From Thermoplasmata archaeon (GTDB lineage Archaea; Thermoplasmatota; Thermoplasmata; Thermoplasmatales; Thermoplasmataceae): a stretch of DNA of 37,907 nucleotides. Made by a program: the position numbers and the translations under genes. The stretch lies in the NCBI GenBank assembly GCA_021806235.1, contig JAJZXU010000004.1, positions 1 through 37,907 of the forward strand, given 5' to 3'. A model generated the notes under the pieces. That model saw only the letters and a program-made list of their open reading frames with translations, had not been told where the DNA came from and ran no database searches. Of the stretch, positions 2,826-8,715 are shown in pieces. Within the stretch, counting starts at the first letter, position 1; each line of letters begins with the position of its first letter.

Positions 2826-3731
2826 TCAAAATGTCATTTTTCCTTTAATTCTCCCGCTGTATAAATTTTTAACATTGTTGATTATTCCATTTATGTTTAT
2901 ATTTTTTATATTTTTTCCGTATATTATTCCATTTTCTATCTTGTTTTTGTTATCTATTATTGAGGTTATATACAGATTATGTGCATTTGATAAATAAATG
3001 GCATTCCTGCCAGTGTTTACTATTCTTAAATTAAAATTTATGGTATTGCTTAAACCTTCAGTATATTTTCCAACCAGTAATGAATAATCATTATTGTTAT
3101 TTAAATACTCATCATCATTATTCCATATAATGCCCTTGAAATATGAATTTGTTGTTGAATCCATCTGAAATCCGGTATAATAACACGAATCCACTGAAAA
3201 ATTATCTATATTGATATTATTTGCATTGAATATCCTTATTCCGGTTGAACAGTTAACTATCTGTGCCTCCTTTATTCTTATATCCGATGAATTTTCCAGG
3301 CTTAAGCCCACATTACCGAGAAATATGTCCAGATTATTTATTATAATATTATAACCATTTATCTCAAGTGCTTTCATAGGTTTCTTATCATATCCATCCC
3401 CGGTATTGTATATTTTTATGTAATCAATATTTATAGCATTATTGCTATTGTTTTTGCCTATTTTCACCCCGCCCTTATTATTTGAGTTTGCTATCAAATA
3501 TTTTATATCTGTATATTCCTCAATTACAATAAATGGTTGGTAATCATCATTTAAATTATTTATTAATATGGCCCTATTATTTGATAAAAGCATTATGCCC
3601 TTTCTGATTACCAGTGGCTCTCTTATATGGTATTTTCCGGGGTATAACAGTAAATAACCTGTTTTGTTTGAATCTATGGCTTCCTGCAAACCGGAAGTTA
3701 ATGAATTTTTATTTGGCTTTACAGATTCCAT
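2826..3731 (-). CDS. Right-handed parallel beta-helix protein (pectate-lyase-like fold)
   Basis: A 301-residue protein. It opens with an element typical of pectate-lyase-3-like proteins (AIDSNKTGYLLLYPGKYHI near 18-36). It then runs as successive short strands rich in Asn and Ile (for example NNLDIFLGNVGLSLENSSDI, NANNINIDNFSVDSC), the spacing expected of rungs in a beta-solenoid. No signal peptide or membrane helix is seen, so it should be cytosolic unless the first residues are misread. Members of this fold are polysaccharide lyases, hydrolases, epimerases or binding scaffolds; no catalytic set can be named here. The neighbouring polysaccharide synthase, whose stop codon abuts this one, suggests a glycan-related role, but this is only context. 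Confidence 0.7.
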   Translation of the reverse strand: MESVKPNKNSLTSGLQEAIDSNKTGYLLLYPGKYHIREPLVIRKGIMLLSNNRAILINNLNDDYQPFIVIEEYTDIKYLIANSNNKGGVKIGKNNSNNAINIDYIKIYNTGDGYDKKPMKALEINGYNIIINNLDIFLGNVGLSLENSSDIRIKEAQIVNCSTGIRIFNANNINIDNFSVDSCYYTGFQMDSTTNSYFKGIIWNNDDEYLNNNNDYSLLVGKYTEGLSNTINFNLRIVNTGRNAIYLSNAHNLYITSIIDNKNKIENGIIYGKNIKNININGIINNVKNLYSGRIKGKMTF

Positions 3732-3764: not shown

Positions 3765-4355
3765 CTATACATTTATTCTTTCAGGTTTTGTATATATATT
3801 AAATCTATTATTCCGGGTAAAAGAAATTAATGTTATATTGAATGTTTCTGCCAGTTCAATTGCCAGGGATGATGGTGCAGAAACCGAGCTTATAACAGAT
3901 ACGCCAAACATTGCGACTTTCTGAACTATTTCAAAGCCTGCCCTGCCACTTACCTGCATGATAGTATCCTCCTTACGGCCAATGCCATTCAATAAAAACT
4001 TACATATAGACTTGTCAACAGCATTATGTAATGCACAGTCACCGTTATTATTCTCACAGACGGTACACTGCAGATCATGTCTGGTTAATAATCTATTCAC
4101 AGCCTCTAACTGCCTTGAATGTACATCTTCTGATTCATAGGATATATCCATGTTATCTTCTATTTTTGTTGAACATGACCTGACAAATTTGCCATTTGCC
4201 CTAACAATGCATGTATCGCATGACTCTATGGGACCAAGGGCGGGATTATAGCATACATGCGGTATATCTATATTATTTTCAGTCACGACTTCAAGAATTG
4301 TTTTACCTGTTTCGGCATTAAATGCTTTTTTATCTATAAAAATTTTGAATTCAGA
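3765..4355 (-). pseudogene. Chimeric remnant: formate dehydrogenase alpha N-terminus fused to FdhD C-terminus
   Basis: Counting from a GTG at 4284-4286, residues 1-88 are the N-terminal iron-sulfur part of a formate dehydrogenase alpha subunit (NuoG-like). They carry a 2Fe-2S pattern with Cys12, Cys23, Cys26 and Cys38 and a His70-x3-Cys74-x2-Cys77 ... Cys84 4Fe-4S site. From about residue 87 (HNAVDK) to 173 the sequence is the C-terminal domain of the sulfurtransferase FdhD (VSGRAGFEIVQKV, SAPSSLAIELAE, RFNIYT). The molybdopterin domains of the dehydrogenase and the CxxC-bearing half of FdhD are absent. Upstream of the GTG the frame still encodes ferredoxin-like sequence (FKIFIDKKAFNAETGKTILE) up to about 4355 but has no ATG, GTG or TTG before a stop at 4392-4394. 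The start therefore also appears lost and the piece is probably not functional. Confidence 0.8.
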
Positions 4356-4456
4356 TATATGGCCACCTATTTTGTTATAAATTACTGTTATTTATGCATT
4401 TAGTTTACAAAAGCATACTTAACATTTAAATATCTGGTTAAAAAGTCCTGTAAATA

Positions 4457-4486: not shown

Positions 4487-4891
4487 ATGAAAGTCACATC
4501 ATTTTTTGGTTCTTCTTCATCTGGAAAAACAACCATAATAGAAAATGTGATTAAAACCTTAAGTTCAGGGTATAAAATAATGTATATAAAGGGAATACCA
4601 CATGAAAATATATCACTGGATACCGAAAATAAGGATACATGGAGAATGGAAAATACCGGTGCATATATAACTTATGGCCTGACTCCCTCAAGAACCTATA
4701 AAATGACTAGGGAAAAATCGTACATTGATGATATAATGGATGAAAATTCTGATATTGTAATAATTGAAAGTTTTAAAAGCTATAAGAATGCCATAAAATT
4801 CCTGGTTATCGGTGATGAGGAATATATTAAAAACTATGAATATAATTATATAATAAGGGCAAATAATGAAACAGGTTATGATTTCCGTTAA
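4487..4891 (+). CDS. mobB: MobB-like GTPase of molybdopterin guanine dinucleotide synthesis, probably truncated
   Basis: A 134-residue P-loop protein. It has Walker A GSSSSGKTT at about residues 8-16, an IKGIPHEN segment, the KDTWRMENTGA block and the strand DIVIIESFKSY near 87-97, which together are the MobB pattern. MobB binds GTP and helps MobA attach GMP to molybdopterin. The usual length is near 150-170 residues, and this frame stops at NETGYDFR. A separate piece in the same direction at 5146-5229 reads like the missing C-terminal end, so I think the gene was interrupted. It lies head to head with the formate dehydrogenase remnant and converges on mobA. The N-terminal identification is solid; whether the product still works is doubtful. 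Confidence 0.75.
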   Translation: MKVTSFFGSSSSGKTTIIENVIKTLSSGYKIMYIKGIPHENISLDTENKDTWRMENTGAYITYGLTPSRTYKMTREKSYIDDIMDENSDIVIIESFKSYKNAIKFLVIGDEEYIKNYEYNYIIRANNETGYDFR

Positions 4892-5145
4892 CAATGTTAA
4901 TATCCACCTTTGGAAGTTATCATCTTTCATGAAGAGCTTAAACTTCGTTGCCTTAACCCCAAGGCATCTATCCCTTCTTGCAGAAGAGATTTCATTCCTG
5001 TTCATTATTTTCCAGCACCCCTGTCCTCTGGACTTATGCAGTTATGCTGGAAAACTCGCATTTCTTCATTACGTTATATCATAAAAATATTTAGATGAAA
5101 CATTAAATAATGAAGAGGGTTATAAATAGTTAATATAATTAATAG
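4892..5145. other. Foreign-looking block inside mobB, no intact gene
   Basis: These 254 bases are clearly richer in G+C than both sides, most of all 4930-5060. They hold no convincing gene. On the minus strand 4880-5005 reads MNRNEISSARRDRCLGVKAT and later FMKDDNFQRWI, which vaguely recalls the N-terminal region of a tyrosine recombinase, but no catalytic part follows. The best description is a relic of an inserted element. No clear terminal inverted repeats were seen. Confidence 0.35.
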
Positions 5146-5229
5146 AAACTTAAACTATATAATGGGGAATGCATAAAATATCCTGAGGAATTCAATAAAA
5201 TAATTAAAATAATATCAGATGCAATTTAG
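5146..5229 (+). pseudogene. Probable detached C-terminal end of mobB
   Basis: A 27-residue frame, KLKLYNGECIKYPEEF followed by NKIIKIISDAI and TAG at 5227-5229, has no start codon and comes right after an in-frame TAG at 5143-5145. Its length and its amphipathic final helix would complete the truncated MobB upstream. The last 15 bases overlap the 3' end of mobA on the other strand. Assignment is by fit, not by a diagnostic motif. Confidence 0.45.
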
Positions 5230-5760
5230 ATATTTTCTTACCATTAATAAATCATCATAATAATTAACACTTTTTAATTTTAATGTATTTACTTTAATAT
5301 AATCTGTATTATATAAGGACATAAATTTACTTATGCTTTCATTTCCAGAGTCCCTGTAGTTTTTTAAATTACTGTATACGGACATGTTATATATTGAAAA
5401 TAAAGGCTCATAGTAATTACTATTCTTATACGCAATTATTTTTTTATTATATGATTTAATTAAATTATCTATAATGTTATAATCAATTAGGGGCATATCG
5501 CCACCCACTGCAAAAAATTCATTATAGGTTTTTATGCAGTGTAATATGGAATCTATCAGTATTCCACCGGTATCGTCATATATAATACTGCAGTAACTGC
5601 ACTTCAATGAATGATTTTTTGTAAACAGTATTATTCTATCAAAAATTTTTGATTCATATAAAATTCTTGATATTCTGTTTATCATGGTTTCTCCGCATAT
5701 TTCCATATTATGTTTATCTTTCAATCTTTCGCTGTTTTTCGCGAATATTATTGCTATCAT
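5215..5760 (-). CDS. mobA: MobA-like molybdenum cofactor guanylyltransferase
   Basis: A 181-residue nucleotidyltransferase of the MobA type, which would transfer GMP from GTP to molybdopterin. The acceptor/metal motif GGDMPLID is present near residue 87 and the Rossmann-like start MIAIIF is in place. The usual glycine-rich nucleotide loop after the first strand (LAGGxSxRxG) is replaced by FAKNSERLKDK, so both loop glycines are missing. It is the last gene of the moa/moe operon. Its ATG lies 47 bases inside the 3' end of the moeA fusion gene, an unusually long overlap that I accept because the first strand starts exactly there. It could be a MobA drifting with the loss of formate dehydrogenase, or a related nucleotidyltransferase with another substrate. 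Confidence 0.72.
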   Translation of the reverse strand: MIAIIFAKNSERLKDKHNMEICGETMINRISRILYESKIFDRIILFTKNHSLKCSYCSIIYDDTGGILIDSILHCIKTYNEFFAVGGDMPLIDYNIIDNLIKSYNKKIIAYKNSNYYEPLFSIYNMSVYSNLKNYRDSGNESISKFMSLYNTDYIKVNTLKLKSVNYYDDLLMVRKYLNCI

Positions 5761-7489
5761 TTATATCATCAAAAAATAATTTAATTTCATTAAAGTATTT
5801 GCTCTGTTTATACAGGTAAAAATAAAATGGTATATTATCAACGGCATCATAATTCATAGAATACTTCAGAGCATCACTTAAATAGACTATACCGGCATCA
5901 CATCTGTTATTTCTCACGTAATCACATATTACATCTGTATTGTCCAGGTATGTTATATTATTACTTTTTATATTTTTTATGGAGTAACTATATAATCCAG
6001 TTCCCTTATACAAAACCGCTACTGATCTGTAATCCTTCCTGTTATATATCAGTGCAAGTGGGATATTAAATTTAAATTCCAGGTAATCATCATTTTTTGC
6101 CTCACTGTTTGTTATGTATAAATCCCCCTCATTTTTTTCCATAGACCCTGAAATATTACTGTAATTTGATTCAACAAATATGGCTTTATTCATTATATTG
6201 TATGGTATTTTCTCCATCAACGGTGAATATTCACCGTAAATTAAAATTTCCGGGATATTATATGAAAAGATGTTAACATTTATTTTTTCTCCTTCCTTCA
6301 GATAATCCGATTTTGAATCTATAATGGAAAATCCTGTCGCCTTCATTATTCTTGATATGGAGCCGGAATTGCCATGAACCTGATATGCATAGTAATTATT
6401 ATTTCTATTTAAAAGCTTTATTAATAATAAATCGGTACTGCCACTGTGCAGTTTGAATCTCTCTCCTGTTGTTGCGTTTACATTAAAAGTATTATACTCA
6501 TAATTTAACATATTAAATAAATTTGGTATAACCAGTGAATACAGAATCATCATGGATGATACCGGAAATCCCGGCAGGCCAAAGAGGACTTTATCATTAT
6601 TTTTTGCAAAAACAAAGGGTTTGCCAGGCTTTACCCTTACACCGTGAAATATTATGCCCGGTTCATAACCATCAAAAATTTTATAAACCATATCATGGTC
6701 TCCAGCAGATGTGCTACCTACCGTTACCGTTATATCATTTTCATTTACTGACCTGTCTATAGTATTTTTTATTGAATTATACTCGTCTTTTATAATGCCA
6801 TAACTGTTAACACTGAATGCACTGTATTTTGACACTTCGGCTTTTATGGCTATGCCGTTTGATTCATATACTTTTCCATCTGTATAAGGATCACCGGGAT
6901 TTAATAGTTCATTGCCCGTTGATATTATTCCTATCCTCATTTTCCTAAAAACTCTTATTTTTTTTATGCCTACGGACGATAAAACCGATATATGGCCTGT
7001 GTTTATCGCTGTATACCTGTTTATTATCCTTTCCCCCTTTACTACATCTATTCCCGGGTTTGAAATCTCATTGAATTTTGGAACAGATTTAAAAAATATT
7101 ATTTTTTCGCCATCTTCCTTCGTATCCTCAAACGGAACCATTGCATCGGCACCTACAGGTATGACACCACCAGTTGGGACTTTAATGCACTCTCCATTTC
7201 CTGGATGTTTCACACCACTTTCACCTATGTATGTTTCCCCTGACATAATAAGTTTTACAGGATTATTATAATCCGCATTTTTAATATCATCCGAAATTAC
7301 TGCATAGCCATCAACCTGTGACCTTGAGAACAGCGGCAGGTTATTGGTGCTGTAGATATCATCAACGGTAATTCTTCCGGCAGAATCAGCTACATCTATA
7401 TCTTCATAATCATCTATTTTTTTTGTATTATTTTTAATGGTATCAAATGCATCATTGAAACTTATTAAATCATGAAATATTAATCCCAT
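5714..7489 (-). CDS. moeA: Molybdopterin molybdotransferase MoeA fused to a periplasmic-binding-protein-like domain
   Basis: A 591-residue fusion. Residues 1-~405 are MoeA, which inserts molybdate into adenylylated molybdopterin: DGYAV at 60-64, STGNEL at 190-195, GSTSAGDHD at 258-266 and GLPGFPVS at 314-321. Residues ~410-575 form a substrate-binding-protein-like domain (PF12727 type; begins NIPEILIYGEYSP, ends near NIPFYFYLYK). This domain is common on one of two archaeal MoeA copies and probably binds molybdate or tungstate. No signal peptide is present, so it acts in the cytosol. It overlaps the upstream moeA by 10 bases and mobA downstream by 47, so translation is probably coupled. Confidence 0.92.
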   Translation of the reverse strand: MGLIFHDLISFNDAFDTIKNNTKKIDDYEDIDVADSAGRITVDDIYSTNNLPLFSRSQVDGYAVISDDIKNADYNNPVKLIMSGETYIGESGVKHPGNGECIKVPTGGVIPVGADAMVPFEDTKEDGEKIIFFKSVPKFNEISNPGIDVVKGERIINRYTAINTGHISVLSSVGIKKIRVFRKMRIGIISTGNELLNPGDPYTDGKVYESNGIAIKAEVSKYSAFSVNSYGIIKDEYNSIKNTIDRSVNENDITVTVGSTSAGDHDMVYKIFDGYEPGIIFHGVRVKPGKPFVFAKNNDKVLFGLPGFPVSSMMILYSLVIPNLFNMLNYEYNTFNVNATTGERFKLHSGSTDLLLIKLLNRNNNYYAYQVHGNSGSISRIMKATGFSIIDSKSDYLKEGEKINVNIFSYNIPEILIYGEYSPLMEKIPYNIMNKAIFVESNYSNISGSMEKNEGDLYITNSEAKNDDYLEFKFNIPLALIYNRKDYRSVAVLYKGTGLYSYSIKNIKSNNITYLDNTDVICDYVRNNRCDAGIVYLSDALKYSMNYDAVDNIPFYFYLYKQSKYFNEIKLFFDDINDSNNIREKQRKIER

Positions 7490-8715
7490 TTTATATCACC
7501 CAGCATATAAACTGTTACATCTTTATTATTCTCGATCCCCTCAAGATTTTCCGGGACCATTGCAATAGAATTTCCGTAAATTATTGTTGATAGAATTCCG
7601 GAACCCGTTGTTTTTAATGGCAGTATATGCACCCTATTGCCCTTTACATATGTCCTGCATATTTGAAACAGGGTAAATCCTATCTTATTGTGGATATTTT
7701 CATCCAGTATGCCGGTAATTTTACTGTAATAATCAAAACTGTATAAATTTTTTATATACCTGTTTATAAAAATTAGTGATGAGATCAGTGCAGCTACCGG
7801 TAAACCCGAAACTGAGATAACGGGTTTGCTATTTACATCGAATAGTGCCGCTGTCCTTCCAGGTTTTATCGCTATTCCTGAAAATAACATCTCACCGGTT
7901 GATGAGATTGCATCTGTTGTTTTATCTTTCCTGCCAAGGCTTGTACCCCCTGTTACTATTATTATATCACATACATCAATTATATTTTTTATTCCGGTTA
8001 TTATATCATCTGCATTATCGCCGTATATGCCACCATCCATGGTTTCAGTAAAATGGCTGTTATAATAATTTTTCAGCAGTATACCTGTCGAATTGACTAT
8101 TTTTTTGTTTGCCAGTTCATTGCCTGTTGATATTATTCCTATCCTTATCTTTTTATATACATATATATTATTTATTCCTGCAGATGCCATTGCAGCAATA
8201 TGCTGAGGGGATATTTTCTCATTTCTACCCACAATTTTATAGCCTGCGGGTATGTCCTCACCATGTTTAAAAATATTATCACGTTTTACCGGTGAATAAA
8301 CATGGATACAGTTACCATGTTTTTCCGCATCTTCAACCTTAACAACGGCATCAGCACCATCAGGTATTTCTGAACCGGTATATACTTCAATACACTCATT
8401 TCTATCTATTTTTCCTGAAAATTTTTCACCCGCTTCTGAGTAACCCCTGATTTTTAACACCGCAGGATTATTTATTGAGGCACTGATTATATCCCCAGAA
8501 ATTACCGCATAGCCATCAACAGCACTCTTATTGAATTCAGGTATATCATAATCAGAATAGACATCAGTATATGATATCATGTTTAATGATGAATTTATGC
8601 CAGTATTTTCACTATTGGGATATCTCCATTTTATGGAATCAAAAATATGTAAGGCGTCATTATACGGTAAAAATCTGTCAAAACCCTCCATTATATGCTT
8701 TGCCATATTATCCAC
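7480..8715 (-). CDS. moeA: Second molybdopterin molybdotransferase MoeA, without the extra domain
   Basis: A 411-residue MoeA of ordinary length. It has KSAVDGYAVISGD near 64-76, the MogA-like segment IGIISTGNELA followed by GGTSLGRKD, and SGLPVAALISS. Archaea often carry two MoeA proteins; one may insert molybdenum and the other tungsten, or one may take the adenylylation role (established idea for the family, not visible here). Domain IV at the C-terminus is present (ILPLKTTGSGILS). It overlaps moaD upstream by 8 bases and the MoeA fusion downstream by 10. Confidence 0.92.
   Translation of the reverse strand: MDNMAKHIMEGFDRFLPYNDALHIFDSIKWRYPNSENTGINSSLNMISYTDVYSDYDIPEFNKSAVDGYAVISGDIISASINNPAVLKIRGYSEAGEKFSGKIDRNECIEVYTGSEIPDGADAVVKVEDAEKHGNCIHVYSPVKRDNIFKHGEDIPAGYKIVGRNEKISPQHIAAMASAGINNIYVYKKIRIGIISTGNELANKKIVNSTGILLKNYYNSHFTETMDGGIYGDNADDIITGIKNIIDVCDIIIVTGGTSLGRKDKTTDAISSTGEMLFSGIAIKPGRTAALFDVNSKPVISVSGLPVAALISSLIFINRYIKNLYSFDYYSKITGILDENIHNKIGFTLFQICRTYVKGNRVHILPLKTTGSGILSTIIYGNSIAMVPENLEGIENNKDVTVYMLGDIKWD

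Follow-up and report, generated by a model that had tools for sequence, protein, structure and literature searches.

In Bacillus subtilis, the formate dehydrogenase ForCE consists of ForC (YrhE/YjgC) and the DUF1641 subunit ForE, where the CQ-RGH active-site motifs are the signature of the ForC group and ForE links the oxidation of formate to menaquinone (PMC8808070). The sulfurtransferase-chaperone FdhD/FdsC belongs to the family PF02634, of which the FdhD of Escherichia coli has a solved structure (PDB 4pde). Fusion pseudogenes that arise by microhomology or slippage deletion have a short direct repeat at the breakpoints, an intact operon in the nearest relative and a broken start. In the literature searched, no fdhA-fdhD scar was found to be described for Ferroplasma or Thermoplasma, and nothing relevant was found on pseudogenes or microhomology in general.

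The window analysed here, a whole contig of 37,907 nucleotides from the 1.93-Mb draft genome, in 37 contigs, of an acid-loving archaeon, was found to contain one open frame in which the front of a formate dehydrogenase alpha subunit is joined to the end of an FdhD. With high confidence, this frame is read as the scar of a microhomology deletion in an operon of forC/fdhA, a DUF1641-like gene and fdhD. By placement the genome belongs to the Ferroplasma acidarmanus genus group, and the fusion locus was found to be nearer to Acidiplasma aeolicum. The features of the fusion were as follows.

3765..4388, minus strand: open frame from stop to stop, 208 codons, the fdhA::fdhD fusion remnant (translation and family search)
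4029..4358, minus strand: fdhA/forC-derived half including the former start codon (97% identity to FdhA of the sister genome G002 over the matched stretch; Pfam)
3765..4022, minus strand: fdhD-derived half, the last 85 of 271 residues (Pfam and a conservation count over 40 relatives)
4010..4028, minus strand: junction tract common to both parent genes (BLAST overlap to the sister locus L033 at 11740 and 8167; direct repeat D5)
4356..4358, minus strand: former fdhA/forC start codon, now ATA (alignment of the window with L033 and L034)

The front part of the frame was found to contain a Fer2_4 match (E 2.3e-14) followed by a NADH-G_4Fe-4S_3 match for the His-Cys3 cluster (E 2.5e-7), whereas the rear part matched FdhD-NarQ (PF02634) over positions 149-236 of 237 (E 7.2e-30). 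These matches, of which the front ones are to domains of formate dehydrogenase and complex I type proteins, are well above what chance would give. The fdhA/forC-derived half corresponds to residues 1-110 of 978 and spans the 2Fe-2S and His-Cys3 4Fe-4S region, so both of the FdhA-type N-terminal domains were present, and all of their cluster-binding Cys and His residues were retained. The fusion point in the protein reads ...GDCALHNAVDK..., and the frame did not contain any internal stop. The molybdopterin domains PF04879, PF00384 and PF01568, which are present in the intact gene of the sister, were absent from the frame in the Pfam search, as were the N-terminal domain or arm of FdhD and its CxxC loop, which reads CGVC in the FdhD of the sister. 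An earlier note, made from the sequence of the window, had described a join of the 2Fe-2S and His-Cys3 front of FdhA to the C-terminal half of FdhD, with the catalytic domains of the enzyme and the CxxC of FdhD lost together, and the Pfam matches, the translation and the sister comparison agree with it on both points.

The sister genome (G002) was collinear with the window on both flanks of the fusion at 94-97% DNA identity (BLAST against L033). At the same place it was found to contain an intact formate dehydrogenase alpha subunit of 978 aa, followed by a 147-aa gene and an FdhD of 271 aa; this is the kind of intact fdhA-fdhD pair that had been proposed as a check. Separate genes were also found in the genome G005 and in Acidiplasma aeolicum (L043), and, of the nine other genus members, eight were found to have separate intact fdhA and fdhD genes, with a contig end falling inside fdhD in the ninth (G008). 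In the intact state, the deleted region lies in a molybdenum-cofactor neighbourhood of mobB, mobA, two moeA, moaD and moaA.

Between the window and the sister locus, BLAST gave two collinear blocks of 94% and 97% identity. In the window the blocks share an overlap of 19 bp, in the sister they are separated by 3591 bp, and exactly 3591 bp were missing from the window. The overlap is the junction tract, which encodes HNAV(D/G) in the identical reading phase in both parent genes. A join at a short shared HN motif, at bases of about 4018-4030, had been suggested beforehand, and the breakpoints were found to lie inside the tract at 4010-4028. In the sister, the two copies of the tract form an imperfect 20-bp direct repeat (17/20 identical, spacing 3591) with a longest identical run of 9 bases. 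The FdhA copy reads HNAVDQ in G005 and HNAVDK in A. aeolicum, and the two copies were therefore probably more alike in the ancestor. A longer exact repeat exists between the two parent genes; the use of this tract is therefore what slippage or microhomology repair typically gives, and no special mechanism is called for. Since HNAV is in the same phase in both genes, any deletion between the copies stays in frame (3591 = 3 x 1197), and the open frame is therefore no sign of selection.

Of the marks of a deletion-derived fusion pseudogene, intact and ordered parents in the nearest relative, a short repeat at the breakpoints and the loss of the start and of invariant residues were present. With the sister operon intact, 3591 bp missing and the fusion unique, the deletion between short similar sites that the earlier note had preferred remains the favoured explanation. 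The ancestor had the operon forC/fdhA - DUF1641-like gene - fdhD beside the molybdopterin-cofactor genes, and strand slippage or microhomology-mediated repair between the two tracts of about 20 bp would have removed the 3591 bp between them, with a product that by arithmetic is in frame automatically; the former start codon mutated to ATA. Compared with other fusion pseudogenes of this kind, the locus differs in nothing essential, and the one unusual feature of the repeat is that two unrelated proteins have an identical peptide encoded there in the same phase. It is in this respect a clean example of an in-frame chimera arising without selection, because four residues happen to be shared, in phase, by two unrelated proteins, and a warning that such open frames should not be taken for new proteins.

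The former start codon was found to be ATA in the window and ATG in the sister and in G005, and no in-frame ATG, GTG or TTG was found between it and the upstream stop, which bears out the suspicion that the start side was damaged. The first usable in-frame start is a GTG at 4286, which would cut 24 residues off the 2Fe-2S domain, and a ribosome-site-like GGTGG and the region upstream of the ATA were nearly unchanged from the sister. In the FdhD half, the conserved motif RHN.VDK..G was found to be broken at two residues that are invariant in 40/40 FdhD relatives. The Arg before HN was replaced by Leu because the junction there derives from the FdhA side, and the Gly after DKSI was replaced by Cys. 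A published FdhD study reported that FdhD does not generally need the CxxC cysteines, and the loss of CxxC by itself is therefore no proof of inactivity; that the entire first domain is gone is a stronger point.

The start codon and the FdhD substitution also bear on a collapse of the two genes of an intact operon at the shared motif by the assembler. Such an artefact is very improbable, even in a draft of 37 contigs, as the run of only 9 identical bases in the sister tract would not be enough for an assembler to merge the genes, and the altered start codon and the replaced invariant FdhD residue are separate marks of decay, of a kind that an assembly error would not produce.

A different reading is that the fusion is expressed, being translated from the ATA or the internal GTG as a small iron-sulfur protein in which the clusters pass electrons and the FdhD-derived tail binds a nucleotide or bis-MGD, which would be a new domain combination. 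The AlphaFold model of the fusion was found to contain two folded modules at moderate confidence (mean pLDDT 79.5) with a poorly predicted joint between them (pLDDT about 55-70). Its matches among solved structures were mostly N-terminal domains of complex I-like proteins and of ForCE1, together with FdhD, and the match to ForCE1 (8rqz chain C) had 42% identity over 113 columns. Both pieces could thus still fold according to the model, which says nothing on activity. The predicted folding, the retention of every cluster-binding Cys and His and the lack of amino-acid changes in the FdhA half on the branch of the window would suit an iron-sulfur protein, but the start codon is lost, the fusion occurs in one genome only, two invariant FdhD residues are gone, and the constraint on the FdhA half can date from the time when the operon was still whole. 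Expression as such a protein is accordingly held to be highly unlikely, and translation from either codon equally so; the same order of preference had been given in the earlier note.

Against the scar reading count the lack of clearly relaxed selection, the lack of an internal stop and the moderate-confidence fold. The pairwise dN/dS against the sister was 0.02 in the FdhA half, 0.18 in the FdhD half and 0.06-0.40 across ten flanking genes. A value near 1 had been anticipated and was not observed, because most of the divergence predates the deletion. On the branch of the window, the FdhA half was found to contain 5 synonymous and 0 non-synonymous changes and the FdhD half 3 and 4, few changes in all, and the contrast between the halves was not significant and suggestive only (Fisher p = 0.08). 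The selection tests have little power because the scar is young relative to the species split and substitutions are few. Because the scar is probably recent relative to the divergence from the sister species, and one genome per species was compared, the deletion may be a polymorphism in part of the species rather than fixed; this is possible but on balance doubtful, and it would qualify the scar reading rather than offer an alternative to it.

The same fusion was not found elsewhere among 41 relatives, all 10 genus genomes, 117 order genomes and 77 further loci. It was the sole FdhD-family sequence in its genome, and no second, full FdhD was found elsewhere in that genome. Under the deletion reading, the remnant, judged from its sequence, is probably a non-functional pseudogene, and the locus very probably records an ordinary gene loss of fairly recent date rather than a new protein. 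Acidiplasma aeolicum (G065) was found to contain ForC and FdhD, whereas its congeners G066 and G067 lack both, with the whole locus absent, which may be either an independent loss of the whole operon or a patchy gain. This absence suggests that loss of the ForC-FdhD operon is recurrent in the family.

The deleted alpha subunit of the sister was found to contain the CQ and RGH active-site motifs (RFCQAPATTG and RGHNNVQG), and CQ-RGH was common to the alpha subunits of the same operon type in the examined loci. The parent had earlier been named as a formate dehydrogenase alpha subunit, which stands, with the refinement that its motifs are those of the CQ-RGH ForC subtype and not of the classical enzyme. 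The 147-aa gene matched DUF1641 below the Pfam cut-off (15.7 vs 21 bits, E 0.014), and from this weak match and the gene order it appears to be ForE-like. The sister enzyme, CQ...RGH followed by a small gene with weak DUF1641 similarity, thus resembles ForCE of B. subtilis. Unlike ForCE, the window retains only the first 110 residues, with no molybdenum domains, and in these archaea fdhD lies inside the operon, whereas in B. subtilis it lies elsewhere. Likewise, the last 85 residues of the fusion align with the C-terminus of FdhD/FdsC, but the fusion lacks the N-terminal domain and CxxC loop of that protein as well as two of its invariant residues. At the sequence level, the forC and only fdhD genes were lost in one step, by which ForCE-type formate oxidation would also have been lost.

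Another formate-dehydrogenase-like protein of 902 aa (contig C23, 10993-13698; locus L130, 4991-9219) was found to be intact in the fusion genome, with classical CH-RGQ motifs and a NuoF-like neighbour. It looks maintained because it has 96% identity to its sister counterpart, and the codon differences between the two are 102 synonymous and 32 non-synonymous. Related full-length enzymes were found in relatives without any FdhD (G012, G018, G023, G028, G032, G035 and G038), a pattern suggesting that the lost ForC enzyme was the one served by FdhD. The 902-aa enzyme would then either need no sulfido ligand from FdhD or receive the ligand through another protein. As ForCE and FdhD are gone together in a Ferroplasma relative that keeps this enzyme, its need for FdhD is testable.

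On the other side of the fusion start, mobB and an inserted element were found.

4487..4891, plus strand: mobB, 134 aa instead of 152 (compared with L033 12217-12675)
4874..5151, plus strand: multi-copy non-coding repeat element inserted in the 3' end of mobB (sister comparison and copy search)

The last residues of mobB were replaced by read-through into the element, which is about 280-400 bp long, begins with AGGTTATGATTT and ends with TTTAAACTATAT. The fusion genome was found to contain at least 8 long copies, whereas relatives gave only partial matches and the sister has an empty site in mobB. Just downstream of the fusion and on the same strand, a predicted protein of 301 aa (2826-3731, minus) was intact in comparison with the 306 aa of the sister, with an altered C-terminus and no Pfam match. 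Two adjacent moeA-like genes of 591 and 411 aa were present in the molybdopterin cluster at 5714-8715, and the 591-aa product was found to contain an extra C-terminal region.
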